A stretch of DNA of 64,000 nucleotides from Amphiura filiformis (Eukaryota; Echinodermata; Ophiuroidea; Amphilepidida; Amphiuridae). The notes under the pieces are model-generated. The model saw nothing but the letters and a program-made list of their open reading frames with translations, searched no databases and was not told where the DNA came from. Each line of letters begins with the position of its first letter. The stretch's first letter is position 1. A program made the position numbers and the translations under genes. Location: NCBI RefSeq assembly GCF_039555335.1, contig NC_092644.1, positions 52,479,365 through 52,543,364 of the forward strand, given 5' to 3'. This document shows, in pieces, positions 22,301-62,407 of the stretch.

Positions 22301-25300
22301 TGGAAATAATCGAGAATTGATTCAAACAGGTAAGCACTAAGTAATCACCAAGACTGCATCTGTCATCCCTATTCACAAGATAGATTCGAAGACTAATCCA
22401 TCTATGTACCGCCCCATCCCTTTGCTCTGCATCATCAGCAAGGTCATGGAAGCTGTTATACAGAACCAACTTCAGAAATACCTCCTTGGAAACCAACTGA
22501 TATCGGATGGGCAGTTTGGATTTGGGCTGCGTCGCGGCACGGCTGGTGTCCTTGCAGTACTGACCCAGGGGTGGTTCGGCTCCCTGGACAGAGGCAACGG
22601 GGTGCGCCTGATTGCACTGGACATTAGGGGAGCATTTGACGAGGTCTGGCATGGTGGTCCTGGCTCGCTTTGGTCCTTCCCTGGATTGGGAACTGCCTGA
22701 CGGGTCGTGCCATCAAGGTTGTCTTATCTGGCCAGTCATCAAGTGCTTTCTTCGTCGGTGCGTTGGTTCCCCAGGGGTCAGTATTGGGCCCACCCATTTT
22801 TGTTCTCTGTCTTCATTGGTGACTTGGGTGGTGAGTTTGGGGACCGGCTCTACCTCTGTTCAGGTGGTTCGACCTTGTTCTGTGAGATTGCGTCTAGAGA
22901 CAGCCCGGAGCTGTTTCTGCTGGCCTGGACAGAGGCCTGGAGGGATTGAGGAACTGGGAGGACGGATGGGGGTGACCTTCGGGCCATATCGGGGTGTAAG
23001 GCAGTGACGATATCAAGAGGGGGTACGGCCGGGCTGGATCTTGTGTTTGGTGCCGCCGGTGCGTGTGAGGGGCTGGAGGTCCTAGGGTGGACGGGGCACA
23101 TTTCTAGCGTCTCTCCGTTTGCGGGGCTCTGGTTCGCTGTGTGATGGAGTGCGCCTCGCTGTCTTGGGTGAATGCCGGCGCCGCCACTCTGAGATTGTTG
23201 GACTCTATCCGGAGGGAGGGGCCTTCGGGTCGTGGGTGAAAGGAAGCGGGCACGGTGCTGGGCATCACATCTCTCCATCAGAGACGTCAGGTGGCTGCAG
23301 CGGCGGTCCTCGGCGTGATGCACGCCGGCTTGTGCCCGCCAGGTCTGGTTGCGCTGCTGCCACAGCAATTTGTAGTCGGGGGTTGGGGGGGGGGGGGCTA
23401 CCCGCCCGGCTTGTCCGTGCCTTGCTGTGCTCTCGCACTGCCCGTTTCCGGAGCCATGTCTGCTGGCGGGGCCTTCATCCACGGTTGAAATGGTCGGAGA
23501 CGTGTCTGGCAGCGGCGCACCGTCCTTTGGGTCTGGTTCTTTTGTTTTACCCCTTCACTCTTATTATTCCTAAGCTGCTGCCACTGATTGGCCCACGTGG
23601 TTGTCTTTTATAGTGCCTAGGTGCCTATATAAGCTCTTGACCTATGTCACTCTTCATGGGATATTATTCACTCTTGCATTTTATGAAAAAAATAAGTAAA
23701 TTCTCACATTTGATGCAGAAGCATTTTGAATAATCAATGACAACAACAACAACAACAACAAGAACAAGAACAACAACAACAACAATAATAACAATAATAA
23801 ATTTTAATATCACAATCGATTAGAGTATTGCCACCATCTGTGATCAGATTTAACTGACAACCACGTCGTTTTATCATTTCGTGTGTTTTTTTCTGATATC
23901 TAATGTTTTTGATTTTTTTAATTTGCCGTTACCAATTCTACTACATGCTTAGATTTATATTCCTGTTACAATAGTCCGAACTGCTTTCACTACATATGCA
24001 ATAACGTACGATAGCTCATCCGTTTTAATTATGAGATGTGTTGGTGCTATCACTAGGATCCACAACCCCAATACATTTCCACATACATTTTTTCGTGTTT
24101 TACCCAAATTGCATAATCTTCAATGTTTGTACCCATAGGAATCCTTGAATTAGATCAAGTCATTGTTGTTCTGCTCACTACTGGAATATTTATTGGTGGT
24201 GTTTTGGCATTCATCCTGGATAACATAATACCTGGTAAGGCACTTTTGTATTTTTAAATTCGGTGATGGATACATAAAAACTTACTTTATTCTTAAATTC
24301 TCCCGTAGTATACTCAAATGCCTTAGGCAAATTTTGGGACTATCCTGTGCGCTTATATTTGTGAACAATGGGAATGAAAGTTGCGCTGAAATTGCTCTAC
24401 TGCTGACATGTCAAATCTCCCTTCGATAACGCTAAATTATACGGAACTGTTTGGTTAAACATCCTAGCCAACTGTCATACAACAGATACGCACGACGGTC
24501 CATTAAAATGGGTTTGCACGCTACATGCCCGGGGTAAGGGTTTAAATAAGAATTAGGGTTATCAGGATTAGGGTATAGGATTGGGGTTAGTGTTAGGATT
24601 AGAGTTTAAAAAAAAAGCGCAGTGATTTATAGTGCGCTACGCACAGGCACAACGCCTAGACGTTGATCCACAAGCCTCAGCACACTTTACAGGTTGTCGC
24701 TGACCACTACGGCCCACATCATTCCACAAACCATTAAACAACAAATCAGGGACTTTGCTGCTTCAAGAGCGCACACCCTAGACATTCCACAAATAACCAT
24801 CGCAACCAGGATCAGCTCCCCGAGTTTCGTACGGGTTACAACGAGACAAATTAGCAGTGAGTTCCTTGTCCAGGGGAATTTCAAGCTAACTCAATTTTCT
24901 TTCCACGTGAGCGTACTAGGCACCGCCAGGGTTCGAACCCACAACCTCTCGCACCACAGTCGAACTCCTTATCGATTGAGCTAACTTGACTGCTTACGCC
25001 TCATTAGTAGGGGTTTGTAACTCTTAAAACAGCAAGAGCAATCCTGTCCCACCCTCTATTTTGCTATTGTTACTTTACCCTGAAATTTGGTCGTATTTTA
25101 TTGTTCCCATCGATCACATAAAGTAAGATATAACCCATAAACCTGTAGGGTTATTATACATATATTATCTACGATATAAGCATATATTCCGCCACGCAGG
25201 CTGGTATGACGATTTTGATCCACCACCTTGGCTAATTTCGAGAGAGGCTTTAAGGGACCTGGTTTATAAGCTGATTTCGGCAAGAAGCTATATACTGCCG

Positions 25301-26662: not shown

Positions 26663-28284
26663 GTTTACTAGCATATAAATGGTTTAACTCTGTGGATAAT
26701 TTCCATTGTCAAGATTGTTGCTGCATTACGAGGTGCTATCGATAACGTTTGCGTCTTTAATAAAGGGTTTAGACATTTTTCTCATAGCTTCTAATGGTTG
26801 TTTCAATCACGATGAAGCCCTCTCGCAAATCTTGTAAAAAGACATTTTATAGGGGGCCTTCTTAACTTGATCCTTCTTCTGGAAACCTAAACCCTAACTC
26901 CAAATCCCAACCCTAAAATCTATTGGTGCCATTCTATCCTTATTTGATTTGTTTATCTAAACGAACATTTTGACACCTCTTTTAGCAAAATTGGAGCACT
27001 TTGATGTTTTTGACCCCCCATAGAGCCAAAAACGTGACCCATAGAGCCAAAAACGTGACCTTTGGCCTTTTTGGTTATAACTAGATAGGTCAAACTATAC
27101 ATTTTCTGAATCCGTGTGACTAGAGGAATGCAATTGAATGGTTTTTAACACAATTTGAGCAAGTTTGAAATTTGACCCTGTGCAAAGTTCGATGATTTTT
27201 CCCTCTTGGGGCCAATTTATATTTTTGGGAACATCCTGATTATATTTTGGGTTATCTCAGGAAACTAAAAAAATTGGTTTGGTTCGATTCTGTGGGGGTG
27301 CAAAGCAGGTGGTCCTAACTCTCCTAGTAGTTATTTCAGAAACAAAAAAAGATGCATGATGCGTTAAGTAGATTGGGTATATTATAAGGGCCCCTTGGTC
27401 ACCAATGAGAGTGCAACTTGCTGATTTTTCTGATTATGTGCATTCAAATGAATGTAAATAAACATAAATAAATATTCATTAATTCAGTTATCCCTTTATG
27501 CTAACCAGAGTGTTTTTGTTTATGTTTTTGTTTTGTTTTTGTTGTAATTTTGACTACATTCGTGAAATTGTTGATATATTCATTTGAATTTGTATGTTTG
27601 AATTGTTTGAATAAAGATGATGAATACTAAGCATTAAATTTGTATCGCAACTATGAGCTCGCGCGCTGGGAAACCGAATTTGTTACTTAAACAGAAAAAC
27701 ACCCCCCGACACACACACACCCCACACACCAACATGTGTTCATATTCATGAGTATTATATAAATTGATTCCAAATATAGAGTTTAGAGAAACATGCAGAA
27801 TATTTATAATGAACCATGGAATCATGAAGGAAAGATATATTTAGTCGGTTTTGACGTCATAACACCAATATTTGTAATAATTTACGGTATTGACTCACAA
27901 GGAAGTATTGGCGAAACGTGTGTGTGTGTGTGGGGGATATTTGATATTTTGTCGTCCCCCCCCCCCCATCCCAAAATGTGGAGACAGGACATGTCCCACC
28001 TGTGCCACCCCCCGCCGGATTGACGTCCATGCCGACGTGGGTTTAATAAAACCTGTTTTGTCATCTTCTATATACATAAGCAGGTAGGCTTTGATTTCTT
28101 TCTTCCATTTCCAAACGTTGGAGTGACCTGCTTAACTGCAATGCATAAACCGTGAAGCTTTGAGGTTTCTAAGGTTTTTAGAGAAAGATTTCGTGACTTA
28201 TAGAACTACTTATACAGGGGCCGCGATATCCCCATTTCTGACGTCGCCATCATGGCCATTACATTAAAACGTAATCATGAACTA

Positions 28285-28530
28285 TTACTTTGTAAATTAA
28301 ATCTAATACTGGAACTGAAATTTGCAACTCACTTTGCTACGTTGCGTCCGAAAACTTCGTCAGGCATCTGATTGATGATGTTGTGATGACGTCAGGTGTT
28401 GTGACGTCGGGTGTTGTGACGTCATCACAACATCATCAATCAGATGCCTGAAGAAGTCCGAAATTTTCGGACGCAATGTAGCAAAGTGAGTGAATTTCAG
28501 TTCCAGTATTAGATTTAATTTACAAAATAA
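28285..28530. repeat. 246-base palindrome with TGACGTCA core and hammerhead-like arms
   Basis: Left arm 28285-28400 and right arm 28420-28530 are inverted copies ('ttaaatctaatactggaact', 'gcatctgattgatgatgttg' and complements). The centre carries GACGTC at about 28389, 28404 and 28419, two of them as full TGACGTCA. Each arm also holds CTGA(A/C)GAAG, a TCCGAAA/TTTTCGGA hairpin (28457-28471 in the right arm) and CGCAA, the same layout as the hammerhead-like motifs elsewhere here. Confidence 0.75.
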
Positions 28531-28769
28531 TGTTTTGAAATACTGGATGAATAATCTACACCAAGATGTAATCATGAAATCTTTCCAAACAATTCTGAAT
28601 GTGTTATGTGTTGGTAAAGCTAAATTCGCCAAAGTACCCTACTGTAAGTATGCTGGTAAGTATACCGTACGTTGTGCCCAAAAAGTCACATATCACACAA
28701 AAAAATCACAGAAAATAAAAAATTCGCCCTAAAAAATAACCTCTCAAAAAAAAAAATCTTTCTTTTCTT

Positions 28770-28904
28770 TTATTTATTATTTATTATTCTTATTATTAAT
28801 TAATTAATTAATTAATTAATTAATTAATTAATTAATTAATTAATTAATTAATTAATTAATTAATTAATTAATTAATTAATTAATTTATTTATTTATTTAT
28901 TTAT
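28770..28904. repeat. (TTAA)n and (TTTA)n microsatellite
   Basis: About 22 uninterrupted TAAT units from 28796 to 28884, then TTTA units to 28904, with TTTA/TTAT on the left side. Confidence 0.95.
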
Positions 28905-29739
28905 AAATAAGGGGAAAACGTTTTCATATATGTGATGCAATCAAGCAAATTAAATTTTCAGTTTCTTATAGGATAGTAAAAAATCATTTACAAATCTGGA
29001 TTTTGCAGAAAACCCCATTGAAATTGAACAACCAGTTCCAGAGATATGTGCAATTAAAGAGTTTCCAAAACAACAGGAAACAGAAGGAAAAGTTCCTTTG
29101 TTTGGCTATATCTCAAAATCAATATTTCCGAGTTCCGACTGATTTTGCTTGATCGCATCACATATTAGTGTGTGTTGCTTTATCTCAAGACGGAAAGACA
29201 AATGGAAATATAAATGCAATTATTGGCTTTCCTGATAAATTTCCAATATCAATGTATTAGTATTAAGAAGTAGACTGCAGGTTTTTAGTTCAGTGGCTAA
29301 AAATGGAAAAATATTGCCATCTCAATGGCCTTAAATCCATAATATAAGATTTCGGTCAAATTTTAATTTTGTTCTTTTTTGGGTCCTTTTAAAAGGACCA
29401 AAATAATGAACATACATTTAATTCAAATTTCTCTACAAGCACAACACCCTAGGTTCAATCCAAATAGGTGCAAGTTAGGGCATGTGTTAACATTACAGAT
29501 ATGCCAGAAAATCAGGTTTTAAAAAGATAACCAAATTTATCTTAAAAGATCGTACATTATGGTTTTAAGTAGCCGTTAAGGAGGAGGGAATCTGATTCTG
29601 ATATCCGTATATAAATTATCATGGGCCCCAATAGAAATAACCCGTCTTTTTAGGCTTTTGTGTTGTATCCAGGAGTTCAGGTTGTTGCACTATTAAACAT
29701 TGCTGATCAAAGAAAGTCCGTTGACATTTGCATTAAATA

Positions 29740-29745
29740 TTTATT
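29740..29745 (-). promoter_or_regulatory. candidate poly(A) signal of copy A
   Basis: TTTATT on the plus strand reads AATAAA on the minus strand 56 bases past the copy A stop. The same hexamer sits 56 bases past the copy C stop (62347-62352), so it is shared between paralogs. Confidence 0.5.
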
Positions 29746-29800
29746 TTATATAACTACAAAAATGGATTGAAAACTAGGCCATTAGAATAACCCACTCCGT

Positions 29801-29928
29801 CTAAAGAGATGTATATTGTTTTCTTCTCCTCCTAGCATAGAATATTGTCACTATGCTGATGAAGACATGTAATACTCCTAGTCCAACAAAAGCGGCAGTG
29901 AAGTCTCCTGTAACTTGTTTTAGGCCTC
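29801..29928 (-). CDS. SLC16A: SLC16-like copy A exon 4 (last)
   Basis: GGLKQVTGDFTAAFVGLGVL, then HVFISIVTIFYARRRRKQYT and SL-stop. It is the final helix and basic tail. The acceptor (minus) is accaatag; TAG is at 29801-29803. Confidence 0.85.
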
Positions 29929-32900
29929 CTATTGGTTAAAGTAAAAGTAAAAGAACAAAACATAATATTCAAAGTCATTGTATGTCAAAGTTATTGCATG
30001 TCAATTATAGTTTTTAACTTTAAGGTTGTGCCTTTGCTTTGGGTTATTTTCCTGAGCAAAATGTGCGCAAAACCTTGACGGGGACATAGATCCCCTCCCC
30101 CACCTCCACACATGTGTTGGCAAAATTAGCCATTTTCTGTTCTCCTTCTACTCCAGAAATATACATCATTAATATGTACCGAATGAAACAAATGATTTTG
30201 CCACATATAGTGAGAGAGGCGATTCATCACCCAGTTTTCAGGCATTGTCATGCGATGTTAAAACTAACCTCTCGGATTATTCGTTTTTCATGAGTACGGA
30301 AGGCATAATGAGGCCACGTTATCCAACTCACCTGTTATTGGTCCTGCTAATATATTTCCAATACCCACGAATTGATATGTCCAAGCAATTGCCGCCAACG
30401 TAAATTGGTTCTCAACAGCCATTGCTTTAGCAAGAGTCATTGCTAATGGAAACTGGGCACCGACACATATTCCAACGATAAACGCAAATATCGCGAGAAC
30501 CCAAAATGTTTTTGCGACTAAATCTAAAATGAAACACGCCGCCAATGAAACCATTAATACAATAAAGAGATGAATATCAGAAATCAGTTTCAGATCAACT
30601 AAAAGTCCACTTCCCAGTCGGCCTAATAAAAGACCTTTACCCCCAATAGTAGAAAGATACACGGCTTTTTTCAGAGAAAGAGCTTTTGTTATTGCGTGAG
30701 GAACAAGGAAAATAACCCACGTAGTATACAACAAGCCATTCAGCAAGAATATGACTTGAAATGTGGCAAACGCTGGATACCCTGTGAACAGTTTCACCTT
30801 TAGTTTGCTTCCCAACAACGTTATACAATTTTGAAAACAATTTTCGTGTTTTACAGGCAACGTTTCGACTCTTTGTTCGTCACGCACCCATGAAGGTTTT
30901 CTAAAAATAGCACTGGCAGGAACTGCGTTGAGGGAAAATGCCGCTATAAGTGCAAGAGTACTGCGCCATCCATATTCCCGAATAAGCCGTTCAGATAATG
31001 GTGGTAAAATCATCATTCCTATCGCACCTCCAGTCAAAGATATACCATTTACGGTGGCAAACAATTGAGGGAAATACCAGTTGAGAGGTTCAATACTTTG
31101 GACTTGTGTAAAAGCTTGCCCTACACCTGTAATACAATAACAATAAAGTAGCTTAGGGAATGGTAAATTAATTATAATCCTAGTAATTGAAATGGCCACT
31201 TTGCCAAACGCTATTTGGATAATTTTACATGACGTAAATCCTATGGGGTTATTTGGGGTTCTTGTTCAGGATCACGGTCTCAAAATATTGCTTGGCAGAC
31301 AACAGATTCGAGTTCAGCATACCCAAATTAACAACAATAAGCTGGTTGCCAACTTTTACCCAAATTGGCCGAAAATAGGATTTTTCCCAAATAGAACCAG
31401 TCTATATTATGTCGGTATGTCCGAATGTCTAAGTACCACAGCGTCATCATCCCTATTATCTTCGTGTCAAAAATTGCCGTGACAGTAGAGCGAATCCACT
31501 AGTTCTTTAACAGCCACGCATCGCGATTTTGTTCGAGATAGGCCGAGCTACCCAGGCTATTGCACACGCCCGTGGACGATAAAAAGGTACGCTTCATTGC
31601 CACTGCGAATTAAGCGTTTCCACATATCTCTGAAATTACAAATTTTTACGATCTGCGCGAGCTCATTATTCTGTTTAACGTTTGAACTCAAGAAAATTCG
31701 ATAGATTTTCAGTTTTTGCTTTCAATACCCTGACTGGAAGTTCAATCCCTGACAAGAGATTACCCTATTCTTTCAGCACATATATTCAACTGCAAGCCAA
31801 ACTATGGATTTTAACATAGACCAAAAATAAAAGGATATTTTTTATGATTTGAGATTATAATCACACATTGACACATTAATGGAAAATGCACACCATCAAC
31901 ATACATTTTTCATTAGGCCTATAGCTAGGAATAGATACCAGAAATACTTTAACGCTGTAACATGCTATGAATAAAATTATCATTATGTGGCGGTCTTTTC
32001 AAATTATAAGCTCTTGTATGTATTGTATGAATTAAACTGTGTGTGGTCTGTGGCTGACAATTCTATAGACACAATGAGAGAGTGCAAGCTTCAATTATCC
32101 TGGTCAATAGGATTATGAATATGACTCTTTTGATTAAATGGAAGTGGGGAAGATATCTCTAGACGTGAGAATTTTATTTTATTAATCCAGTTTATTTGTA
32201 ATCTAGTGCGTTTACATTTCCACGTGATTCCGTCTGTACAAATATAATTATTAACCTGATGGTGACGCTGTGCGTACGTCCGAAATATATTCCTTTATAT
32301 AAACATATGCAAATACATGTAAATTTAATTAGGAGATAAAAGGAGATATCTTTACCGACCTGCCATGGCCATTCCAAATGCCAGGCCCGGTACGTTTGGA
32401 GTAACGCAACAAATGCCGAATCCCACAGCTGACAATAGTCCACCTACTGCTACCATTTGTCTGACATTCAAAGTCCCTTCCAAAATCATTGTAAATGGAC
32501 CTGCACATAAATATTTAGATACGTAATCTGGCCATGTAAACATAATACTGGACAAAATACCTAAACTTGTAAAAATTAGACGCAAAAGTATATTTTTATC
32601 ATAAAAGCATATTGTAAGACAGTCCGCTATCAACACTATCACAGAATCATAGGATAAATGTATGAGCTCGGCCCCCTCAAATGGAGAGTTTGGCACCACT
32701 TGCTGTAATCAGAGATAATGTCATCATGGGGACAAAACAGTGCATGATAGCATCCCCCAGGACTAAACCAACCCATCTTATTTAGGTAAAACATTGGCAC
32801 AGGGAATGATGCTGCTCAGACTCCGAGTGTTGCTGTATCAATATCACACAGGACCACAGGGATGAGAAAAGGTGAATTTTGCCGCTCTCATTCGACAGCC

Positions 32901-34430
32901 CAAAAAGGTTGACCTTTTTGTATTTCGATGGTTTGAAAAATTGAAGAACAACAAAAAGGATAATAGACGCTAGCCAGCCTCAAAAACTGTATTTATAATT
33001 ACATTTGTTTCACAATTTTCCAACATTTTTGGACAATTTCCTCGCCCTTTTTTGCTGTAAAATTATTTCCCTTCCCTTCTTCTTTTGCCGCCCCTTCCAT
33101 TTTGCCGCCCTCTGCTCGCGCCCCAGGGTCCCCACTCCTAATACCCACGTGAACACTGCTGATGAAGTCAACCGATGGTTGATGAAACGTCTATAAACGT
33201 AAGTTTTGACTGGTTTTGATGTCGTGATGAAATTCTTTAAGGTGATTGGTCAATTGTTGTAACTAGCTTGCGAATCAAAGATCTCTATGATGTATCGTGA
33301 AGCTCTCATTGAAACACACATAATAGGGCAATGCTAATCTAATTACAATATCGCCGAGGCGTTTGTGACAGCTAAAAAGATCACTAACTGAACCTAGTAA
33401 TAGATTGAGAACTTTGTGTTGTTGAGCTGTTATGTCCTATTTTGTCTTTGATACACGGCTTTCGGCTTAACCACTAGTATGTTTATGATTTTTATAATTC
33501 TCCGGATGAGCAAATAAACTGAATATTCTTTCAGCATTGTTCAGCGGCGAGACTCATATTATATTTGTGGATTGATATAAAATAGCATACATGTACGCAG
33601 TTGGGAGCATTACAGCGATATGCAGCCGTACTGTCAATGTACCACTTTTTGGCTTCTACCTTTAAAAGCATGCAAGCTATATTGATACCGAGAACGAGAA
33701 GATTTGCCCCTTCATTTTGCATACCACTTTGTCAAATTGTTTTTTCTCATTTCTTTAAAAAATGCAAAAACAAATGCAAAAACAAATGCAATGGGTGTAG
33801 TACCACCTTAAATACAATAAAATACATCTTTTGGTCATTGTTTCACATTCATATCTTTTTCCGTTGTCGAGAAACTCAAATTATTGATTTCCGGAAATCT
33901 TCGTTATTTTCCGGAAAATGGGGGATTTGAATAAAACCAGCTATAAAAGACCAATAAACTCACATTTTAATGTTTTTTGTTGCATTAGGTTACAGAACAC
34001 TGTTCTTTTGCATTTAAAACCTAAAAATACCATTTAAAAAAATTAATTTTGTCAAAATTTAGCAAAAACCGAAATTTTATGAATCCCGATAATTGACAAT
34101 TATTTTGGTCATTTTGGTAATACACTACGCTAACTTCGCTAAGTGAGCTTTACGCGACGCGACTGGCTCTCTTTCGTGTGATAAAGTTTAGGACTTATTG
34201 ACTTATTTTCAACCAACCTACTTTTACATACCCAATATATTTCCCAATCCAACAAACAAGCTACAACAGAGTCCAACAATTGCAGACGTAGAATTGAGAT
34301 CGGTGATGAAAGAGATGTAGAAAACACCTAAAGATTTATCGACTCCAGCTTTCAGGAAGGTTAAGACGAAGCGAGAAAATACAACGAGAAACCCCCGTGC
34401 ATTTATATGGTTAACTTGTGAAGTTTCCAT
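29801..34430 (-). CDS. SLC16A: SLC16/monocarboxylate-transporter-like MFS protein, copy A (complete)
   Basis: Four exons on the minus strand: 34430-34232, 32500-32360, 31126-30332, 29928-29801. They join in frame to 1263 bases (420 residues plus stop). The product is a multi-spanning carrier of the major facilitator superfamily, most like proton-linked monocarboxylate transporters: a short N-terminus, 12 likely helices, and a basic C-tail RRRRKQYTSL. Landmarks: KSLGVFYISF (TM1), AVGGLLSAVGFGICC, YFPQLFATVNGISLTGGAIG (TM4-5), RLIREYGWRSTLALIAAF, GGKGLLLGRLGSG, VGICVGAQFPLAM. The TM1 DG(G/S)(W/F)GW motif is absent (ARGFLVVF) and the YF-x-KRR part of the TM5 motif is YFPQLF, so substrate and proton coupling may differ. 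It faces SLC23 tail to tail. Substrate unknown. Confidence 0.85.
30332..31126 (-). CDS. SLC16A: SLC16-like copy A exon 3
   Basis: A 795-base exon, the same length in copies B and C, coding most helices from GVGQAFTQVQSIEPLNWYF to GIGNILAGPITG. The acceptor is gtattacag and the donor GTGAGT on the minus strand; phase 1 in and out. Confidence 0.9.
31127..32359 (-). other. SLC16A: SLC16-like copy A intron 2
   Basis: 1.2 kb, AT-rich. At 31195-31240 it aligns with the B and C introns and shows the site without the 639-base element seen in B. No gene. Confidence 0.6.
32360..32500 (-). CDS. SLC16A: SLC16-like copy A exon 2
   Basis: GPFTMILEGTLNVRQMVAVG, GLLSAVGFGICCVTPNVPGL, AFGMAMAG. Position and GGLL...G spacing match TM2-TM3 of the family. 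The acceptor is ttatgtgcag; the in-phase donor is GTCGGT after 32360. A GTAAAG five bases on would break the frame. Confidence 0.82.
32501..34231 (-). other. SLC16A: SLC16-like copy A intron 1
   Basis: Contains a repeat shared with the window start (32739-32790), a hammerhead-like motif (33159-33191) and short 'caaatgcaaaaa' repeats at 33760-33795. No gene. Confidence 0.6.
33159..33191 (+). other. hammerhead-like motif, lone copy
   Basis: CTGATGAAG (33159-33167), a perfect 6-bp hairpin TCAACC-GAT-GGTTGA (33168-33182), T, then GAAACGTC (33184-33191). This is the conserved core layout of a hammerhead ribozyme (CUGANGA, stem II, GAAA), but stem III would be minimal and one extra base precedes stem II. 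Self-cleavage is not shown. Confidence 0.45.
34232..34430 (-). CDS. SLC16A: SLC16-like copy A exon 1 (start codon)
   Basis: Minus-strand ATG at 34430-34428. METSQVNHINARGFLVVFSR, then FVLTFLKAGVDKSLGVFYIS, then ITDLNSTSAIVGLCCSLFVG. KSLGVF is the typical TM1 end of monocarboxylate transporters. The donor is GTATGT; phase 1 out. No matching exon exists next to copy B, and for copy C it would lie outside the window. Confidence 0.82.
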
Positions 34431-34599
34431 GTGATCAAGTCAATAGTTTCTGTGAGCACTTTGTGAACATGAGTAACTAATTAACCAGATCTGAAAAGAT
34501 AAACAGAGACAAACAATACAAGATCAAAAGCAAACAATTCACACAAACTTGTTTTACTATTTTTTTGTTTTTGATGGTTTGTTCGAATGAACTGGATTG

Positions 34600-34850
34600 T
34601 TTCAAGTTATGATTGGTTTTGGTCACGTGGTTTCCTATCATCCTGGCTAAGCCCTTGATTGACGTCATTACCGATACCTTTGTCTGTATTCTTTGTTAGA
34701 AACTTAAAACTTGTGGAAAGCAGTTTCGGTTTTCATTTCAGTTGCTGACATAATCGTGTGACCCCAGAATCAATTGGTTTGAAGTTACCTTGATCAAAGT
34801 ATACAAAGGAAGTTTTTAAATTTTGCAGTGCAATATTCACGAGCAGGAAA
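34600..34850 (-). promoter_or_regulatory. putative 5' flank of copy A, repeated three times in the window
   Basis: The block with 'ggtcacgtggtttccta', 'ttgattgacgtcatta', 'gatacctttgtctgta' and 'ttggtttgaagttacctt' recurs at 36220-36480 and 51240-51460 in the same orientation. It starts about 170 bases upstream of the copy A start codon, so it may be promoter or 5' UTR sequence carried along in the duplications. TGACGTCA-like and CACGTG words are present but binding is unproven. Confidence 0.45.
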
Positions 34851-35085
34851 TCCAACAATCGAAAGCGTGGTGTAGATATTCAAATAATCCTTGGATTATT
34901 TCTCTGTGAAAAAATATAGACCATCAAAATATTTCTTCCCGATATTACAAAAGAATAGACACCCAATTGATGTACACATCAAATTCATTATGCATATCGC
35001 ATACGGAATAATCGATTGAAGCTATATATATGACTTCTGATATAGGCTAGTTGCCTTTTATTCAAGTTATTTATTGCACACAAAA

Positions 35086-35336
35086 AGGCGAAAGGTGGAG
35101 GGATGTGGGGGGGGGGGGTGTTTGTGTGTGTGAAGGGACTTAGGGGAGAGTGAAAGAGAAACAGAGGGGAGAAATTGGATTAGAAGATGAAAGGGAAGGA
35201 AGGGATAGGAGAGCTCGAGGGGGGAGAGGTAGGGGGAGAGGTAAGGGAAAGAAGAACAAGACACTGGGGAGAGTAGGAGAGGGAATAGGGAAAGAGGAGG
35301 TAATTTAGGTGAGGTGATAGGGGAGCCTAGGTGAGA
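35086..35336 (+). repeat. 250-base polypurine tract
   Basis: Almost only G and A on the plus strand, with G runs of up to about 13 (35107-35118) and many GGGG groups. The minus-strand ORF here (Pro/Ser/Leu-rich) is an artefact. It could form triplex or G-quadruplex structures (inference). Confidence 0.8.
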
Positions 35337-35587
35337 TGTATGTGTTTTGCTTTCCGGGGACAAAAAGCTAATTTATAATCAAATCATATCAATTATCATC
35401 GCTTATATCTCATACAAACAAACAAACAAACCAAAAATTTTATATCGCTTATGAATGCACCAGTCACCGTGTACGCGTGTGATTGATATCCGATCCATAT
35501 ATATATTTGTTTCTTCAACATAACAAAACACAAAGGCTGATAAAGCCGATAATATGCTTAGCACAATCATGACAATAGGCAATTATA

Positions 35588-36107
35588 TACAGTAAGCAAA
35601 AGAATTAAGGTACCAGTTGTGTTCACCCCTGTATATCCTAAGTAAAGACCAATGTGTAAAAATTAAAACAAGCAGCCGATGCCTGTGCTCTTTAGCTCTG
35701 ATTCAAGACCTTATTTGTTGGAATTGGTTGAGAATTAAAGAAACGGTGATCCAAAACCTAATGAAGATACGAAATAAAAAAAATTGCACTTTTGTGTTCT
35801 AATCAATGAAAGCACGACGGTAGTTTTTCGTGCTAATCAATGAAAGCGCGGCGCTAGTTCTCTTGTTCGTGTACAAATCAATAGGGCATGTAATGTGGCA
35901 AACTGCAACTTCTAAATTTGCATCTTCCTTGGGTTTTTGGATCGTCGTGTCTTTATTCCTCGAACAATTTCAACGAATGAGGTCTTAAATTCGAGCTAAA
36001 AGATACAGCTATTGGCTGTTGGTTCCAATTATAACATATCTGTCTTTGTTTAGGATATACAGGGGGTGAACGTAACTGGTACCTTAATTTTTTTTTGGCT
36101 TACTGTA
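35588..36107. mobile_element. 520-base Tc1/mariner-type MITE
   Basis: Ends TACAGTAAGC...GCTTACTGTA with TA at both outer edges. Terminal inverted repeats run about 50 bases through 'aattaaggtaccagtt.tgttcaccc.ctgtatatcc'. CAGT-start plus TA duplication is typical of Tc1/mariner-derived MITEs. No transposase. Confidence 0.85.
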
Positions 36108-36219
36108 CTTTGACCAATGAGGTATAAAGTAGAAATTATGTTTGCAGACAAGATCTGCTCCCAGGAATCTGCTCCTATTTTTAATCTCTTGATTTTTGGT
36201 TTCTGAACAAAAGATAAAC

Positions 36220-36480
36220 TAAACCTCAGAACATATCGGTCGTTTTAAGTTATGAGTATTAGGATTGGTTTTAGTTTTAATACTTGACTGACGTCATTAT
36301 CGATACCTTTGTCTGTACTCTTTGCTAGAAACCTAAAACTCGTAGAAAACAGCTTCAGTTTTCATTTCAGTTTGTTACATTATCGTGTAAACGCAAAATG
36401 AATTGGTTTGAAGTTACCTTGATCAAAGCATACACAAGAAGTGCAATATTCACGAGCAGAGAAATCAAACATGTTAATAT
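36220..36480 (-). repeat. second copy of the SLC16-like upstream block
   Basis: Matches 34600-34850 over 'gactgacgtcattatcgata', 'cctttgtctgtactctttg', 'ttcagttttcatttcag' and 'gcaatattcacgagcag'. No SLC16 exon follows it, so it is a partial duplication. Confidence 0.6.
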
Positions 36481-37019
36481 ACATTTAAAAGGGTTGGTAA
36501 GAAAATCCATTCAGTGTTGCGTGTCCTATACCGTCTGACTTATACTTATCATAGACTACCGGCAGTGCCTGATAAAAAAAAGTGGATTATCCGTCAAAGT
36601 ACGTGAGCCACACAGACTGCAGCTACTCAGTGGGCTCACGCAGCACTGTGTTCAAAATTCCGATGCATCGTGAACAAAATGGTTATTTGAGCTATATCAG
36701 GAGACGCGGTCATTATACTTTTCAATATTAACCTGCAATTTATGTTCTGTGATTGGATTAAACACATCCCGTCTATTGATGAGGGAATGAATATATTTTA
36801 ATACCAAATATTTTTACCAATTTCATCTTTTATTACCTTAGTTATTCGTTCGGAACCACGACTTTATAAATCTCAGTTTAATATAAATATTAATATAGAT
36901 ATAAATATAATTTATACTACTCATCAACTCGGTGACATGTGAATGACTGTTGTATGGCATTTACTTTTGGACAATGCCCTTTTTTTAAACCTTTTCGAAG
37001 GTGTTTCTAGAAGTAAAAT

Positions 37020-37560
37020 GTCACAGATTTTTGAGGACTATTTTGGAATTGGTTTTAACAAAACTTGAGCAACTTTGAAATTTGACCACTATATAAGCTT
37101 ATCAACATTTCAACTTATTCCGATTTTGGCAAAAATGGTAGCAAATTGTTTGTGTAGCTGCGTAGAACCAGAAAAAGAATAGTTTTGCCTATCTACTGTG
37201 TTCCCTTACTGAGATAGAGTGCAAACAAGGTCAATTGCCATTGGGTGGCCATCGACCAATGTTGATCTCTGACTTCCATTGTATGTAAGAAGTAAAGTAA
37301 ACAGTTTAGAAGGTAAGTTCTATACCGTTTCTTGATTCTTATATCAAGATGAGCAATTTGCCACCAAAAAAACATGTCATTTTGCCTAAAAATAAGGTTT
37401 TGTAAGATAAGTCAATAACAATAGATCGTAGATAGCACAAACTATACATTTTCTTAATCCTTGTCATCAGACGAGTAGTTTGATATCTCTCTCAATAAGA
37501 TCAATTTACCCTTGTGTGACCTTTCGTGACCTCTAGCAAAAAACATACCCTACAATTTGA
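37020..37560. repeat. dispersed repeat family member
   Basis: Related to 10140-10860 ('tgagcaactttgaaatttgacc', 'aaactatacattttcttaatcc'). No coding potential. Confidence 0.5.
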
Positions 37561-37811
37561 GTCCACTACCCCCTAGTAGTGATCCGGATGGTCTATCCTT
37601 AGACCTCATGGTAACAAATATTGGTAGCCATGGGTGTTGAAATCAATCCTTAATTAAGGCCCGTATGAGATTTAGCTCATAGACTACATTGTTCACTAGC
37701 GATGGGCATGGTCACAGATAGCTAAAGATTTGGCCTTGGGAAGTGTTCATAAACCTTTTGGTTGGAAAATATAGGCGGGCAAATGAATTTCGGATCCTAA
37801 AAATCCAGTCC

Positions 37812-38127
37812 TTAAAAGGGCATTTCGTGATCCAGAGCCTCATCCCCCAATTAACAACAAAAAAGTTGAGATTTTTATACCACTGGATACCTCTGGCTAC
37901 ATAATGTTTATGTACCAAATATTTCTTGCAGATTAATTCGTTTAGCAAAAATATCGCCTAATTTGAATTTAACAGTGGCCAATGGAGCAGTGTAATGCAC
38001 ATAATCATGCATAACTCGCAAACGCAAAATCGGAATCAACTGAAATTTTGGGGATGGGTTTTTTTCGTGGATATCTACTAAAAATGTCATAAAAAGAGCA
38101 TGCTAGGATCACGAAATCCTCCTTTAA
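37812..38127. mobile_element. MITE-like element, copy 2 (TTAAAAGGG...CCTTTAA)
   Basis: Reverse-oriented relative of 779-1026, with the same ends (CATTTCGTGATCC and GGATCACGAAATCC) and interior, plus about 65 extra bases. Confidence 0.7.
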
Positions 38128-38129
38128 TA

Positions 38130-39440
38130 GGAGGGAGCCAAAAAACTGAGGGTAAAACTATGGGGTACAATGTTCAACAATTAATGTTAAGTATTCAATT
38201 GTATACGTTCAAGCTTCAAATCAACAAATCCCCGTACTTTACAATTTGGGTAGACCATGCCATAGTCGAATTTTGATAAAAATTATGTTATTATTAATCA
38301 TGATGAACGTATTCCGTTGAACTCGAAATTATACTGATGTTTATTAAACATGTTAAAATTAAAGTGTTCAATAGTAAAATAGTCATAAAGAGTTTTATAA
38401 TTAGATGATTAGTAACAATAAAAGTTATTGAATGCAACATATCTTGCATACTTATAATGGCTCACTTCAAAACTGAACAATTCTGATTTTGGAATCTAAC
38501 CAGTTTATTGATTGCGAAAACCCGAGTACAAAATCCACTTGGGAAGCTAACAAACAGAGGGAGTATGGTGACTGAAAATATCAGATGTGAAGATCTATCA
38601 ATTGCACACAAATTAATACAAATCAGCGTTTTATGCTTAAATGTAATAGCCAAATGGGCAAGTGGACTATGGAGAAGTCTACAATGTGGGTAATACTAAA
38701 ACTATAATGAGTAACAACTCGAAATGGTCATTTTTAGCTGAACAACACATGATCAAAGTGCGTATTATACTTGGCGGTGGTTTCAGTGCTGTGGCTTGGT
38801 TGGTGTTTGAATATTAGTCTAATTACCTCTCTTCTCGATTTGATTAATTTCAACTGTGGTTAAAAATTCGCCTGTTTTCGCCATTTAAACCTTACCTTAT
38901 ACACTGCAGCATCTTGGTTGCCCACGCCAAGCTCATGTTCACCAAAATCACCAAAGGAAGTTAGGAACCTGCACTTCTTTATAACATTATTTGTCCATCG
39001 AATTCAAAAGCATTGCAATGATTTCCTCCAAAAATGACCATAAAAAGCTAAGTAAATGATACCACTATCGACAAATATCATGTACGTCAACAAAATAACA
39101 TGACGTCATGCACCATATGGTTGTCTTTATTTTCATACCATATACTATAATAGACCTTTGCCGACAGTTTAACGCTCCATGATCATAAACATGTTATAAC
39201 GATTTTATTAAAAGGATTGGCAGGATATTTTTATTGCCTGGGTTTATGGCCTATGTGTTGGGGTGTGTTACGTTTTCATCCTCAAGCATCAACCTAGCCT
39301 GGGAATTCTAGTGTACAAAATATTATAACGCTCTTGTTATCAGGTGTGCCAGATGTTTGTAGCTGTTTGTGTTGTGTTAGGGGTGTGTTTAACGTGGACC
39401 GTAATCTGACTTTTACCGCTAAATGACGCGCCGTCGATCC
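38130..39440. other. unassigned AT-rich stretch
   Basis: No gene, RNA or clear repeat seen. A CATGACGTCATG palindrome lies at about 39100-39111. Confidence 0.4.
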
Positions 39441-39444
39441 ACGG

Positions 39445-41620
39445 TTATCGGAATGATACAGTGCAGCGTGTCCACCAAATGGAATTCTGAAGATGATAGT
39501 CACAGTACCCAAGGTTCTCTTTCGCCTTATCTCTGAACAAATACCAAACCCTGAAGGATTCAGCTAACTGAAATTTGTTTAGCAAAGTAAGAACACAATT
39601 TGGCGCATCAGCTTTCCATAAAACTGTAGTATCGTTATGAAATACCTTAAGAACCTGTGTCTCTAAAAGTTTCCAAAACCTATCATAATTGGGGTCAAAT
39701 GAATGTTTTGACCAGACTAATTTCTGAGCTTGTGAAAAAGCCTCAACGTCAATCATACGCAACCCTCCATCACTGTAGTCATTCAATAAATAATTTCTTT
39801 TAACCCTGTCATTCCCACCATTCCAAATAAATTTAAAAAACAAAGTGTTCAATCTCTTAAAAAATGACTTAAGAATTGTAATACACAAAACCGAAAATAA
39901 GTATAAAAGCTGTGGCTGCAAAAGCCTCTTTATCACAGTAATTTTACCAATTAAAGACAAACTTCTTGAACGCCAACAACTCAAAATTTGCTGAATTTGA
40001 GTCAATTTAGGAATAAAATTTAACTCGTACAAAGCATTCACATGTAATGCAAAATGAATACCAAGTGTTTTAAAGGTATTCTCTTTCCATACAAGACCCT
40101 CATTGCTGAGGGGCTTAAATTCATTACCCTTCAACCTACAATGTACCAATATGAATAGCCTCAGATTTAGACATATTTATCTTGCATCCAGATAACCCAG
40201 CAAAAGTCCTAAGAGAATCAACAAATTTCTAAATGACTCAAAATCCCCATGCAAAAAACAAGTTGTGTCATCAGCCAAAAGACTAAATTTTTTCTCAACA
40301 TCACCAATCTTAATGTCATTGATGTTCTCATTGCTCCTGATTGAAATTGCGCAAATTGATCGATAGCGCAAAGAAACAACATAATTTTATAATCTGTATT
40401 AAGAAGCGAAATAGGGCGATGATTTTTCACAAAGAGAGGATCCTTATCTTTTTTTGGAAGTAAGGTAATTACACCATTGCGTTGTGAACTAGACATGAAA
40501 CCTTGCTCAAAAGAGTAGTGATAACAATTTAAAAGCATGTCGCAAATGTCATTGAAAAAACAATGTAAAACTCAGCCATACTGCAGTTACTGTCCGTTTT
40601 CCTATACACAATACACAGTGCTCTTACCATTGACGCGTGACCTCTACAAATAGCGTACGTTAGAAGTATGGGGATTTGCCTAGTTAACGTCGCTGTGTGA
40701 AAAATAACCGGCCAATATTAAAAGTACTCTTCTAAAATTCTAGAAAATATAGTTTTGTAACATGTCCTAAATTTTTAGCTAATTTAGATGTTTGGAAATA
40801 TGCGTACTTTGGTGTTTTAGGAAGGATATAAACGACAGATAACACCAAAAAATATGAAGAAATTATTTCCAAACCGTATTTTCAAGAATGCTGGTTAACA
40901 AAAAGCAGACCGTTGTCTCATTTCGTGAACAAAGGTCCACATACCATTGTTTCCTTGCGTTTCCTTTATAATCGGTTACCCAACTGAAGCTATAATACCA
41001 GCTCATTGTGATACCGCACATGTAAAACAGACACATGTGCACAACCAGAGAAGATCTGATTTAATCAGTTGAGCTGTTTTCAATGAGTGTTATCTTGGAT
41101 TAATAGCTTTTAATGGGGTTAAGTCCTGCAAAGTTCGTGGTGAATTCTACTGTAGCCATGACTGCATCATGCTGGCAGACCATCATAGCCTGGGCTACGA
41201 TTCATATTCAACGACTTCAAAGAAGTTAAAATTTCAGCTTTGGAAATAGGCCTATTCAGCTTATCTTTACTTTCATCCATAAATTGGGGAATATCAAGTT
41301 TATCTAAATATAAAAGTATATTATCCTTATTGCTAGGAGAAGATTTGGAAGTGTACAAGGTTTCATAAAAAAGAGTGTAATTCATTGAGAATATCTTTCT
41401 TATCTGAAATGATGGAGCCGATATCCTTTTTCAAAATATGAATATTTTTCTTCTCACTGGATTGTTTCTCAAGATTACAAAAATATCTGGAACTTTTTTC
41501 ACCATGCTCTAAAAAGTGCAAATTCTTGTCGATGGGGACCCACGCCCCGTCCACTTTGGGTCCCGCCCCATACAGGCTCCCACGGTAAAAATCCCAGCTA
41601 TGATGCCCTTGCCACATCTT
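39445..41620 (-). mobile_element. L1/Tx1-like LINE fragment, inactive, with an insertion
   Basis: Minus-strand order: [20 protein letters not shown] (41620 side), ILTSLKSLNMNRSPGYDGLP, a break, NGVITLLPKKDKDPLFVKNH with RPISLLN, ADDTTCFL, then RSRSLSLIGKITVIKRLLQP, FFKFIWNGGNDRVKRNYL and GGLRMIDVEAFSQAQKLVW. These are reverse-transcriptase and C-terminal blocks of L1-group elements of the Tx1 type. Frames break repeatedly. About 600 unrelated bases at 40575-41170 split the protein between GLPA and EFY. The 5' edge lies against the SLC23 exon 10 copy. Confidence 0.82.
40575..41170. mobile_element. ~600-base insertion inside the L1/Tx1-like LINE
   Basis: Non-coding sequence that interrupts the LINE reading between GLPA and AEFY. 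'gcagt.atggct' words occur at both edges (minus strand), possibly a target duplication. Element type unknown. Confidence 0.5.
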
Positions 41621-41668
41621 CTTATCATTTCGTTCTTACCCACAAAACTTCAATGTTTTCACCCATAG

Positions 41669-41764
41669 GAATCCTTGAATTAGATCAAGTCATTGTTGTT
41701 CTGCTCACTACTGGAATATTTATTGGAGGTCTTTTGGCATTCATCTTGGATAACATAATACCTG
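41669..41764 (+). pseudogene. SLC23A: second copy of SLC23 exon 10
   Basis: 96 bases, same length, phase and splice sites (tttcacccatag, GTAAGG) as 24139-24234, with only a few changes (GGV to GGL). Together with 42307-42515 it is the only SLC23 sequence here; no exons 1-9 precede it. It may be a duplication remnant or an alternative 3' end of the upstream gene, because phases are compatible with exon 9. Confidence 0.8.
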
Positions 41765-42306
41765 GTAAGGCAGGGCTGTTATGGTTTTAAAATCCATGAA
41801 GGTTATTAAAGATGTGGATTTGTCGATTCTGAAAATGAAATATTTCATGGATTATACTTCATTCTTTAATATATTCTCCTTTGTATTGGTAAAGCGCCCA
41901 AGTAAGACGCGAAATGGTTTGGCCTAATCCTGGGACTAGTATTGGCTGAGTCAAAAGCTGTTCTTTTGGTCCATACGCATCATCGGTGAAGGAATCAAAT
42001 AACAGGCTTAATTACAATATAATTGTTTAAGGGGAGCTTGAACTAGTGCTGTTTAAACTGCAATATGGAAACAGATACACGCAAAAGGAATGGTATGAAT
42101 TCTATAAAGAAGATCCCAGACCTATGGAAATATTAGATTATTGGCTTCTTTGACTGATTGCCCATAATGTACAATATTAAGTATGCTACATTGTTTCTAG
42201 TTAAATGGCTACTATAGCTCCTACTATCCCACTTGTCTTCAGGTTAATGGGAAATTCGTAATCAAAGAAAACTGCACATATTCCATTGTGTTTAACATTA
42301 TTTTAG

Positions 42307-42515
42307 GAACTATCGAAGAACGAGGCTTAGTTGCATTTTCACGACAGTACAAAGAGGACGATGATGGAATAAACTCCTTGGATGTATACGATCTTCCCTT
42401 TGGTATGACACTTCTGCGACAGTGGAAATGGACACAGTATATCCCATTTAGTCCGACGTACGCAAGGAAGAGAATAATAGTTGACGAAAAGGATGGTATA
42501 ATGTGGGAACTGTAG
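42307..42515 (+). pseudogene. SLC23A: second copy of SLC23 exon 11
   Basis: Same acceptor and start as 25826 ([18 protein letters not shown]...). It is conserved through [15 protein letters not shown], then a net one-base loss moves it into another frame and it stops at TAG 42513-42515, about 8 codons early. The 3' flank still matches the original for some 100 bases. The intron between the two copied exons is 542 bases, against 1591 in the original. Confidence 0.8.
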
Positions 42516-42734
42516 AGACGAATGAAAACGGGGTTTAACAACCTCGTGATATTTGGTCCTGTGTTATACACCCGAGTACCTTTTGTGTTACTTCTAACAT
42601 GTCATCTCGCACTTGGTTTTATTAAATTTGTCACTATCTTTAACATTTACTCTTTAATGACAGTAAAAACTGTAATGTGATTTAGTTTGATAGAATTGAA
42701 TAGAATTAACAAAAATTCAACTAACCTTGTTTTT

Positions 42735-42775
42735 TCAATGTGTGACACACATCTTCATCAAGTCCTATGATGTTG
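42735..42775 (-). other. hammerhead-like motif, degenerate
   Basis: Minus strand: CTTGATGAAG, then an ATGTGTG-TCA-CACAT hairpin, then TGAAAA. One base differs from CTGATGA. It is paralogous to 42893-42923. Confidence 0.35.
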
Positions 42776-42892
42776 AGATGGACTTGCCCTTTTGTTAATC
42801 ATTGAGAGGCCATCCAAATCAAGAAGAAATGGACAGAACTAAATCGCGACCACAAGTTTAAACTGACTTTCAGCACACAAACTAATTTTTAA

Positions 42893-42923
42893 TTTTCGTC
42901 GTGTGACACACATCTTCATCAGG
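42893..42923 (-). other. hammerhead-like motif
   Basis: Minus strand: CTGATGAAG, hairpin GTGTG-T-CACAC, GA, CGAAAA. Same layout as at 33159 and 43166. Confidence 0.4.
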
Positions 42924-43013
42924 AGAAGTCCTATGATCAGTGAATAGATTCATCAGGTTTGTACTTCAAATCAATTGGTAATTTTTTCGTGTCAAAACCA
43001 GTAAGTTTTTACT

Positions 43014-43206
43014 TACTATAATATTTCGTCCATCTCGTCCAAGGACTTCATCAGATATGAGCATCTGATCCACTTTTTCAAGGAAACTGGCTTCCGGTTG
43101 TGTGTAGTCTCATTTACAGTCTTCAAAGGTTTCTACAAAAAGGAAAGTGGAACAGATGCTCACATCTGATGAAGTCCTCCGAAGAGATGGACGAAATATT
43201 ATAGTA
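43014..43206. repeat. 193-base palindrome with a hammerhead-like motif in each arm
   Basis: Left arm 43014-43075 and right arm 43143-43206 are inverted copies. Right arm (plus): CTGATGAAG at 43166, GTCC ... GGAC as a possible stem II, then GAAATATT (to 43199). Left arm (minus): CTGATGAAG at 43054, GTCC ... GGAC, GAAATATT. Outside the arms lies another short hairpin (gtaagtttttacttac, 43001). In the right arm CACAT before the motif could pair with ATGTG after it, as stem I. Confidence 0.55.
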
Positions 43207-44039
43207 CATGTGTACAACAATCATTATAATTTCAATATTGTATAAAAAGTCAGATATGTATAAACAGGTAACGGTAAATCAACCATACAATGCAAACACC
43301 CTTTAGGCATAAGCTGTTTTAAAGTCAGCTCCCCAGTTCTCGTTTTGGTCTTTCTTGGGATAAACATATGCCTAGAAACGAGCATAAAATGCAAGACTCT
43401 CATATCTTTCTGTACATTGTTTCTAAACGTAGTTTATATATGCTTTCATCAGGGAATTTTAGAATATGCAAATATAAAATAAATTTGCAAATGCATATAA
43501 TATTTGCACAACCCTCTAGTTGACGATTGTTGACATAATTATGGCAACTGGTGTCCCTTTTAGTAGTTATTTAAATAAATGAAATTACGGAATCGGATAG
43601 GAACGTTTGCAACTTTGTACGATATTTTTGTGGGGACCTGAGAGCACATCATACACACCAAATTGTAGTCTGAATACGAAGAATGTCCTTCAGCTATCAA
43701 ATAATTTAAGATTAAAAAATGTATATCTGCAATAGGAAAGGTCACAATAATCAAATGAAAAATGAAATGATGGACGGCTTTTCCTCCCATCTAAATATAT
43801 AATTATTAATTATTGCAATATCATTTGGGCTGATCGAAATAATTCTAATTTAAACAAAATTCACATAAAACAGAAGCGAATAATTAGACTGTGCTCAAGC
43901 TGTAGCTTCCCGGGGTAGCATATAGGGGTGGGTGGGGGGCGTTACCATTTTGGGGGGCAAGCTACTGCTACCATAGAAAGTTGACATCAAAGGCTAAACA
44001 AAAATACATGATAAATCTTTACACAAGGTCGAATTTAAA

Positions 44040-44560
44040 ACTTGCTTAAATTGTGTTAAAACCATACCATTTATTCCTCTAGTCATAATGATTCATAACG
44101 AATAGTTTGACCTATCTAGGATACTAGTTATTTTTCAAAAAGGTCAAATGTCACATTTATCACTCTATAGGGGTCAAAATTTATTTAGTCAAATGATGCC
44201 GCCAAAATGCTCGTTTTCATATAACAATTTAAATAGAGGATTGCACAATCTATGAATGAATAACCTAGGTAACACAACAAAATAGGTCAAGCTTCATTCA
44301 GGCATATTGATCTTAACCTATTTTAAGAATGTAACAAAACACCCTACAATCCTACCATTATATGAATGGTTGAATTGTTATATCAAAACAAACATTTTGC
44401 ACCTACTCTGTCAAATCGAAGCATTTTGATACCCCCATATAGAGCCAAAAATGTAACCTGTGACCTTTTCGGACGGTACATCCTAGATAGGTCAAACGAT
44501 ACATTTTTAGAATCCTTATGACTAGAGTAATACAATGGTATTTGACTAATTTTAAAGCAT
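44040..44560. repeat. dispersed repeat family member
   Basis: Shares 'gacctatctaggatac', 'aatccttatgactagag' and 'ccatatagagccaaaaatgt' with 26950-27260 and 10740-10800, part in inverted orientation. Confidence 0.5.
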
Positions 44561-44868
44561 TTTGTATAGTCCAGCCAGAATTAAAACCAGAGAACCCGGA
44601 CTCAACAGCCATATTGATACCCCATGGAGCAAAAGTTGGGGATGTTCGGTTTTGCTCGGGATGCTCGTCATGTGAGCGCGAGATCGCATACTGGACATTA
44701 TGCTATAGGCGCATGTTCTATGGGGATTTATAAATATAGCAATTGAAAATAGCTCTGCGCCTTTGGCTCAGTCCAAATAGGTGCAAATTGGGACATCTGT
44801 AAACATAACAAATGTGCCAGGTTTGAAAAAAATTTAACCAAATTCATTTTAAAAGATCGTAGATTATG

Positions 44869-46475: not shown

Positions 46476-46971
46476 TACTTATAATACTCCTAGTCCAACA
46501 AAAGCGGCAGTGAAGTCTTCTGTAACTTGTTTTAGGCCTCCTATTGGTAAAAGTAGAAGAAAGGAACAAAACAAATGTTCAATATAATATTAGATATAAG
46601 TCAATATTTCATGATCAACATTAGATTTTAAATAACGTGCGGGTTGTACCTCTCCTTTGGTACACTTTCCTAAGCAAAATTATCGCAAATCCTGGACGGA
46701 ACGGGGGATCATAGATCCATTCTTCCACCCCCTCACACTTGTTAGTAAAATTAGCCACTTTTTGTTCTTTTTGCTACCCCCGAAATATACAACATTAATA
46801 TTTACCAAATATCATGAATATCATTTACCGCTAAAAGTGAGAGAGGTGACTCATCATCCAGTTTTCTAGCATTGTCACATTGCGTTGTTATAAACACTAA
46901 AAACTAACCTCTGGGATTATTCGTTTTTCATGAGTACGGAAAGCATAATGAGACCCAGTTATCCAACTCAC

Positions 46972-47766: not shown

Positions 47767-47870
47767 CTGCAATACATTAAAAATAGCTTAGTGAATGTCA
47801 TATTAATCAAAATCATAGTAATTGAAATGGCCGCTTTGCCACACATTTTGCCTATCATTTGGTTTAATTT

Positions 47871-57413: not shown

Positions 57414-57477
57414 TCTTAAAGGGTTTTAGCCATATACTGACGCGCTGGCTGGGCTAAATGCTAACATGTTTTAAAAG

Positions 57478-57867: not shown

Positions 57868-57918
57868 TGAACTATGAAGATCCTGATGAATCTGTTTCAA
57901 GGGATGTTTTAAAAGTGT

Positions 57919-62352: not shown

Positions 62353-62407
62353 TTATATATCTACAAACATGGATTGAAAACTAGGCCATTAGAATAATCC
62401 ACACCAT

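Follow-up and report, generated by a model that had tools for sequence, protein, structure and literature searches.

Hammerhead-Like Motifs in the 64-kb Window

The stretch analysed here is a 64,000-nucleotide segment of the Amphiura filiformis genome (NC_092644.1, positions 52,479,365 to 52,543,364), referred to as the window and numbered from its first letter. It contains hammerhead-like motifs, both solitary and in the arms of palindromes, together with two coding remnants of Penelope-like elements (PLEs) at 57.5 and 15.1 kb. Four observations underlie our interpretation: the motif is in excess, it lies downstream of PLE coding remnants, two target-site duplications (TSDs) are present, and an uninterrupted PLE carries this motif together with its extra A. 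Most probably the motifs are what remains, in decayed PLE ends, of the "minimal type I" hammerhead from the pseudo-long terminal repeats (pseudo-LTRs), a reading to which we give a probability of roughly 0.78.

The window was scanned for CTGANGA followed by 0, 1 or 2 bases, a stem of at least four pairs and GAAA, and the counts were compared with those of 200 dinucleotide shuffles. Four motifs with one intervening base were found, where the shuffles averaged 0.06 and never exceeded 1; the two-base spacing gave none in the window (shuffle mean 0.05). The four well-formed copies start at 33159 (+), 43166 (+), 43054 (-) and 14939 (-) and represent three independent loci, since those at 43166 and 43054 are the arms of one palindrome. 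All four carry one extra base between CTGATGA and stem II, as an earlier note on this DNA had remarked, and none has the canonical hammerhead layout, in which CUGANGA is followed immediately by stem II and then by GAAA. The string CTGATGAAG occurs five times (0.5 expected) and CTGATGAA ten times (3.1 expected). Three sites of this class, at 14939 (-), 57883 (+) and 42956 (-), had not been listed before; GAAA is absent within reach of the latter two. The sole match with no intervening base, at 5717 (+), has CTGAGGA, an AT stem and GAAA (one occurrence against a shuffle mean of 0.07).

Penelope-Like Element Remnants

A 5'-truncated PLE insertion spans 57479-57903 (+), and its left end carries 31 nt of its own 3' region in inverted orientation. 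The insertion is flanked by a 13-bp TSD, ATGTTTTAAAAGT (57466-57478 and 57904-57916). The C-terminal end of a PLE open reading frame (ORF), KEAIWIRSRGKDTMNKDEGAY..., was located at 57490-57759 (+) (tblastn 66% identity, E 1e-35), and 30 of 30 candidate proteins matched this piece at E<=0.01. Pfam gave no match for the window piece itself, the GIY-YIG profile included. Its longer relatives contain a GIY-YIG-like stretch: the Pfam GIY-YIG profile matched one of three scanned relatives slightly under the cut-off (P0015, 20.9 vs 22.6 bits), and PF01541 was precomputed for 11 of the 120 proteins listed in a wider search for relatives. The piece is the C-terminal part only of a PLE-type ORF combining reverse transcriptase (RT) and GIY-YIG. 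The 3' end of the insertion, CCTGATGAATCTG (57882-57903, +), stops before any GAAA. The insertion and a LINE-like element at 55.0-57.4 kb (RT and endonuclease matches, minus strand) lie between the copies of an 834-bp direct repeat (53501-54334 and 57919-58749, 97% identical).

The remnant at 15065-15415 (-) is a more broken PLE ORF, in which part of the GIY-YIG region is missing and the frames are interrupted. It was matched by tblastn in two pieces (15415-15329 and 15225-15154, shared E 3e-8) and by the profile at E ~1e-4 on two pieces; its 3' end beyond 15154 gave weak matches (15100-15065, E 0.038). The match was weak with the first, narrower set of relatives (E 0.15) and became stronger with the wider set. 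A direct comparison with P0001 gave no match because this part lies outside the coverage of that protein. The remnant, too, derives from a PLE-type RT and GIY-YIG ORF, here in a decayed state.

The motif CTGATGA-A-TCTC...GAGA-GAAA (14911-14939, -) is located downstream of the 15.1-kb remnant, and CCTGATGAATCT follows both remnants, at 57882 (+) and 14940 (-), about 120-165 nt from the end of the PLE ORF depending on where that end is assumed to be. The link to PLEs proposed in the earlier note, with remnants near 15150 and 57478, is therefore borne out by protein matches at both sites, while its view that the motif sits apart from any coding remnant does not hold for every copy.

Palindromic and Solitary Copies

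At 28.3 kb, a putative inverted pair of PLE pseudo-LTRs occupies 28282-28567 and consists of a palindrome (28284-28531) and a 36-nt extension present on the right side only (28532-28567). The structure is flanked by an 11-bp exact direct repeat, GTAATCATGAA, with its left copy at 28271-28281 and its right copy, from the flanking repeat test, at 28568-28578. This length was reached by 1.25% of 2000 random placements, and among the 11 structures tested a TSD of at least 11 bp was found in two, those at 28 and 57 kb. The arms stand head-to-head with their motifs reading outward, carry CTGAAGAAG / CTGACGAAG, and are 94-98% complementary in their matching pieces. The motif that had been noted in this palindrome, at 28340-28480, is indeed present in both arms, in degenerate form: the right arm reads CTGAAGA-A-GTCCGA...TCGGAC-GCAA (28448-28476, +), the left arm (28342-28363, -) lacks 7 nt of the hairpin, and GCAA replaces the expected GAAA in both. 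No coding part is left, and the anatomy of palindrome, tail and TSD suggests PLE-type inverted pseudo-LTRs. Rfam matches resembling miRNAs at this position scored below the gathering thresholds and were rejected; they are due to the long palindrome. An almost pure (ATTA)n microsatellite of ~27 units lies nearby at 28795-28901.

The second palindrome (43014-43206) has arms of 63 nt that are 92% complementary. Both arms carry CTGATGA-A-GTCC...GGAC-GAAA reading outward, in the right arm at 43166-43196 (+) and in the left at 43024-43054 (-, the core starting at 43054), which confirms the paired motifs described at 43024-43199. Two further copies reported beside it, at 42893-42923 and 42735-42775, are also present, with corrections: both are on the minus strand, the first (CTGATGAAG...GACGAAA, 42894-42922) has its GTGT/ACAC hairpin separated from GAAA by GAC, and the second (42733-42761) starts with TTGATGAAG and repeats part of the first at an offset of 161 nt. 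The string TACAAACCTGATGAATCT (42946-42963, -) is identical over 18 nt to the tail of the 15-kb PLE remnant and thus ties the 43-kb cluster to it.

Fold-back or miniature inverted-repeat (MITE-type) DNA transposons, with terminal inverted repeats that look like the motif by accident, are quite unlikely to be the source of these palindromes. The window does contain 19 self-palindromic rows, some overlapping, and the motif occurs in just 2 of the 19, so that palindromes alone are no pointer to PLEs; moreover, no flanking exact repeat of at least 8 bp was found at the 43-kb palindrome. These points speak against PLE descent and for such transposons. Against the transposons stand the structure at 28 kb, with its 11-bp TSD and a tail on one side, the motif excess with its fixed extra base, and the fact that motifs of this class accompany both PLE remnants. 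The accessible text of one study (PMC3846280) also describes PLE insertions that have inverted pseudo-LTRs but lack a TSD. Long fold-back sequences among the 19 rows include 2229-4022, 35588-36107, 44031-44571 and 49440-50493.

The best single motif, CTGATGA-A-GTCAACC(GAT)GGTTGAT-GAAA followed by CGTC, lies at 33159-33191 (+), as first reported, and its stem II has seven pairs, one of them G-T. By direct reading, GAAACGTC at this copy fits a helix III of one or two pairs and an NUH cleavage triplet, while the remaining window copies vary. The agreement of the 33-kb motif with PLE hammerheads is confined to the core and hairpin.

The earlier note considered a small non-coding, ribozyme-bearing repeat possible, and the motifs at 28, 33 and 43 kb raise the alternative of a separate small non-coding retroelement with type I hammerheads, as in metazoan retrozymes, which have been reported from diverse invertebrates (PMC7229834, text seen in part). 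Next to the copies at 28, 33 and 43 kb no PLE protein match reached significance, which favours this alternative and weighs against PLE descent. Retrozymes are, according to the same source, tandem repeats of 150-450 bp that bear type I hammerheads. Between 28 and 44 kb no array of tandem repeats was found to contain the motif hairpin, nor did any array have a unit above 16 bp. With stem I not preserved in the window copies, and with the PLE-tail identity, the extra A that also occurs in a PLE and the PLE pseudo-LTR anatomy and TSD at 28.3 kb all pointing elsewhere, a separate ribozyme-bearing repeat is very unlikely.

An Uninterrupted Tandem Element With the Same Motif

A pattern scan for the core with spaced CGAAACGT was performed on viral contigs (17 stretches) and genome contigs (at least 120 stretches), which yielded 137 listed loci. 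A stem II of at least four pairs after one extra base was found in 6 of these 137. Two loci, L068 and L069 on one contig, combined a stem II of at least four pairs with a stem I of -12 kcal/mol or better; the other 135 lacked this combination and were dismissed.

The contig (LJHE01000041.1, 11 kb) is made up of a 5,441-bp unit present twice in tandem, and the unit has one frame of 616 codons and a second of 765 codons (ORF2). The latter matched GIY-YIG above the Pfam cut-off and RVT_1 slightly under it. Of the 7986 candidates scored, 2131 were related to it at E<=1e-5; the 120 relatives listed carry PF28514 and PF26215, and many also PF00078 and PF01541. A PDB search with ORF2 gave no match at E<=0.001, and no PLE DNA locus was confirmed in the genome contigs (alignment A1) or the viral contigs (A1, A2 and L069 ORF2). 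Each unit contains CTGATGA-A-GACCC(CTAAA)GGGTC-GAAA-CGTT, with the same extra A as the window copies, ~1.0 kb after the stop of the second frame and ~0.3 kb before the next first frame. In L069, stem I reaches -21.0 kcal/mol, a value equalled by 0 of 300 shuffles, and GAAACGTT fits, on direct reading, a helix III of one or two pairs and an NUH cleavage triplet. At L069 and at both window remnants the motif is outside the ORFs, though within the retroelement, and a conserved coding segment does not explain it there.

Chance matches to a short consensus are highly improbable as an account of the window motifs. The bare core with spaced CGAAACGT is admittedly frequent in microbial and viral records, as the 137 listed loci show, and several GC-rich loci among them reach a stem I near -20 kcal/mol; that such strong energies also arise by chance speaks against the PLE reading. 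Nonetheless, two listed loci on a single contig combine both stems, the window has four motifs with hairpin where 0.06 are expected, and the motif accompanies PLE remnants.

Covariance, Stem I and Fold Tests

Several results weigh against decayed PLE hammerheads. The Rfam covariance scan of the 64 kb gave no match at gathering score, and neither 28-44 kb nor three short stretches (33.1, 42.7-43.2 and 14.9 kb) yielded a hammerhead match at E<=10; the 57.9-kb copy was covered by the gathering-score scan alone. Stem I was above shuffles in none of the eight scorable window copies, with 21% to 87% of shuffles equal or better (8 of 10 copies were scored, those at 57883 and 42956 being omitted for having no GAAA in reach). 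The predicted folds of five window copies were mostly unremarkable (z of -0.66, -1.15, -2.22, 0.04 and -0.15). With no Rfam match, no stem I and plain folds, the homology is left to rest on the core, stem II and context. In addition, 3 of the 10 CTGATGAA sites (7560, 29856 and 43452) have no fitting hairpin, being chance occurrences or unexplained; the 57-kb TSD is AT-rich, with a 10-nt stretch of it found again close by; and the L068/L069 contig belongs to another PLE clade than the window remnants and comes from a single-cell assembly of the bacterium Epulopiscium, in which it is likely to be an animal (host-fish) contaminant.

A control places the covariance result in perspective. The uninterrupted copy L069 scored 16.7 bits against Hammerhead_HH9, where the gathering score is 52 (E 0.076 on 141 bases); in the alignment the extra A appears as an insert, and helix III is deleted. 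As an uninterrupted element is barely detected by Rfam, the negative in the window is weak; it shows that the window copies match worse than an uninterrupted PLE copy and not that they are unrelated. The covariance check proposed in the earlier note returned no hammerhead match, an outcome listed there among those that would refute the motif, but for the same reason it does not refute it.

The minimum-energy folds predicted for L069 and for the 33159 copy have GAUG paired with CGUY (CGUC or CGUU) around stem II. They would suit a PLE-derived hairpin that is no ribozyme and serves as a stem-loop for the initiation of reverse transcription or for protein binding, and the available text of one study places the start of reverse transcription of one PLE within an AC-rich stem-loop (PMC11167929). 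This explanation is nevertheless unlikely: L069 retains the CUGAUGA/GAAA core and a long stem I, and in the same partial text one PLE hammerhead cleaved, only when element protein was added.

Interpretation

The core, the unusual additional A and the position, all as in PLE hammerheads, together with published reviews, led us to file the window motifs as decayed PLE ends. The PLE descent of each orphan copy, the mechanism in live elements and the inactivity of the copies here are what we infer from these observations. Confidence in the PLE assignment is highest at 57 and 15 kb, good at 28 and 43 kb and lowest at 33 kb.

The mechanism in a live element is modelled on the literature and on the uninterrupted copies L068/L069. 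In the transcript of tandem units, stem I would enclose CUGAUGA-stem II-GAAA-CGUU, and cleavage would occur after CGUU. As helix III is almost absent, cleavage would probably take place as dimers or with the help of an element protein, and hammerhead cleavage was not needed for PLE insertion in vitro according to the text available from PMC11167929. Retrotransposition would then yield copies that are 5'-truncated, along with pseudo-LTRs paired head-to-head in inverted orientation, and this accounts for solitary motifs and for motifs in both arms of palindromes. The window copies have decayed, leaving stem I undetectable where it was scored, several core bases changed and the PLE coding part truncated or lost. 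To judge from their sequences, they are probably too damaged for self-cutting and now have no activity or function.

A broader suggestion, which we regard as tentative and rather doubtful, is that the hammerhead with the fixed extra A, met as relics in this genome and in the uninterrupted PLE of another clade, is the normal form in a broad set of PLEs, working as a dimer or as a protein-assisted ribozyme. If this is true, standard covariance models under-detect PLE hammerheads, as the 16.7 bits of L069 would exemplify, and genome counts call for a model that permits the extra base. More generally, free-standing or palindromic hammerhead-like motifs in animal non-coding DNA may be traceable to PLE pseudo-LTRs and need not indicate a new ribozyme-bearing repeat.

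Other Features of the Window

Three related segments with long minus-strand frames (29738-31237, 46480-47870 and 62345-63876) are 85-94% identical, and the one that was scanned gave an MFS_1 match at 30288-31265; they probably form a local transporter gene family. A GC-rich island at 22001-24000 (0.49 vs 0.32-0.40 elsewhere) includes an RT fragment at 22341-22700. At 11720-13411, numerous overlapping self-matches mark a long region of diverged direct repeats.

Comparison With Known Systems

The accessible text of one study of PLEs describes insertions flanked by inverted pseudo-LTRs, one of which may bear a 31-bp tail. Some of these insertions have TSDs of 8-10 bp and some have no TSD; palindromes are found at inverted junctions, and solo pseudo-LTRs also occur (PMC3846280). 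The Pen2/Pen3 pseudo-LTRs of Adineta vaga described there resemble the window in their head-to-head pairs, short one-sided tail and TSD of ~10 bp, but are 181-218 bp long, whereas the window arms, ~120 nt at 28 kb and shorter at 43 kb, have no ORF remaining between them.

Among Rfam families, Hammerhead_HH9 (RF02275) aligns with L069 below its gathering score, and the window copies are unmatched. Metazoan retrozymes are small, non-coding and hammerhead-bearing like the window motif, which differs in having neither tandem repeats of 150-450 bp nor a type I stem I. In chrysanthemum chlorotic mottle viroid (CChMVd), the hammerhead has an extra A located after A9. The plus-strand CChMVd ribozyme is a natural hammerhead that shares an additional A with the window copies (PMC3705267, partial text), although it is a viroid ribozyme and no kinship is implied. 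A literature text search with CUGAUGAAG and "hammerhead" returned no paper, and CTGATGAAG was absent from the 15 papers listed of 420 that matched a second search; figures and most subscription papers were outside the reach of both searches, and the extra A has possibly been published.

The closest counterparts are the minimal type I hammerheads of PLEs and Terminons. In the text available from two reviews (PMC7761336, PMC6155905), such hammerheads are reported in PLE pseudo-LTRs and, by the thousands, dispersed in animal non-coding DNA. The window copies differ from them in the extra A between CUGAUGA and stem II, in a stem I that is undetected in the scorable copies and in several core substitutions. 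They share with them CUGAUGA, stem II and GAAA and, to judge by the 33159 copy, may share an almost nil helix III; they also agree in their location at non-coding PLE ends and in scattered orphan copies.

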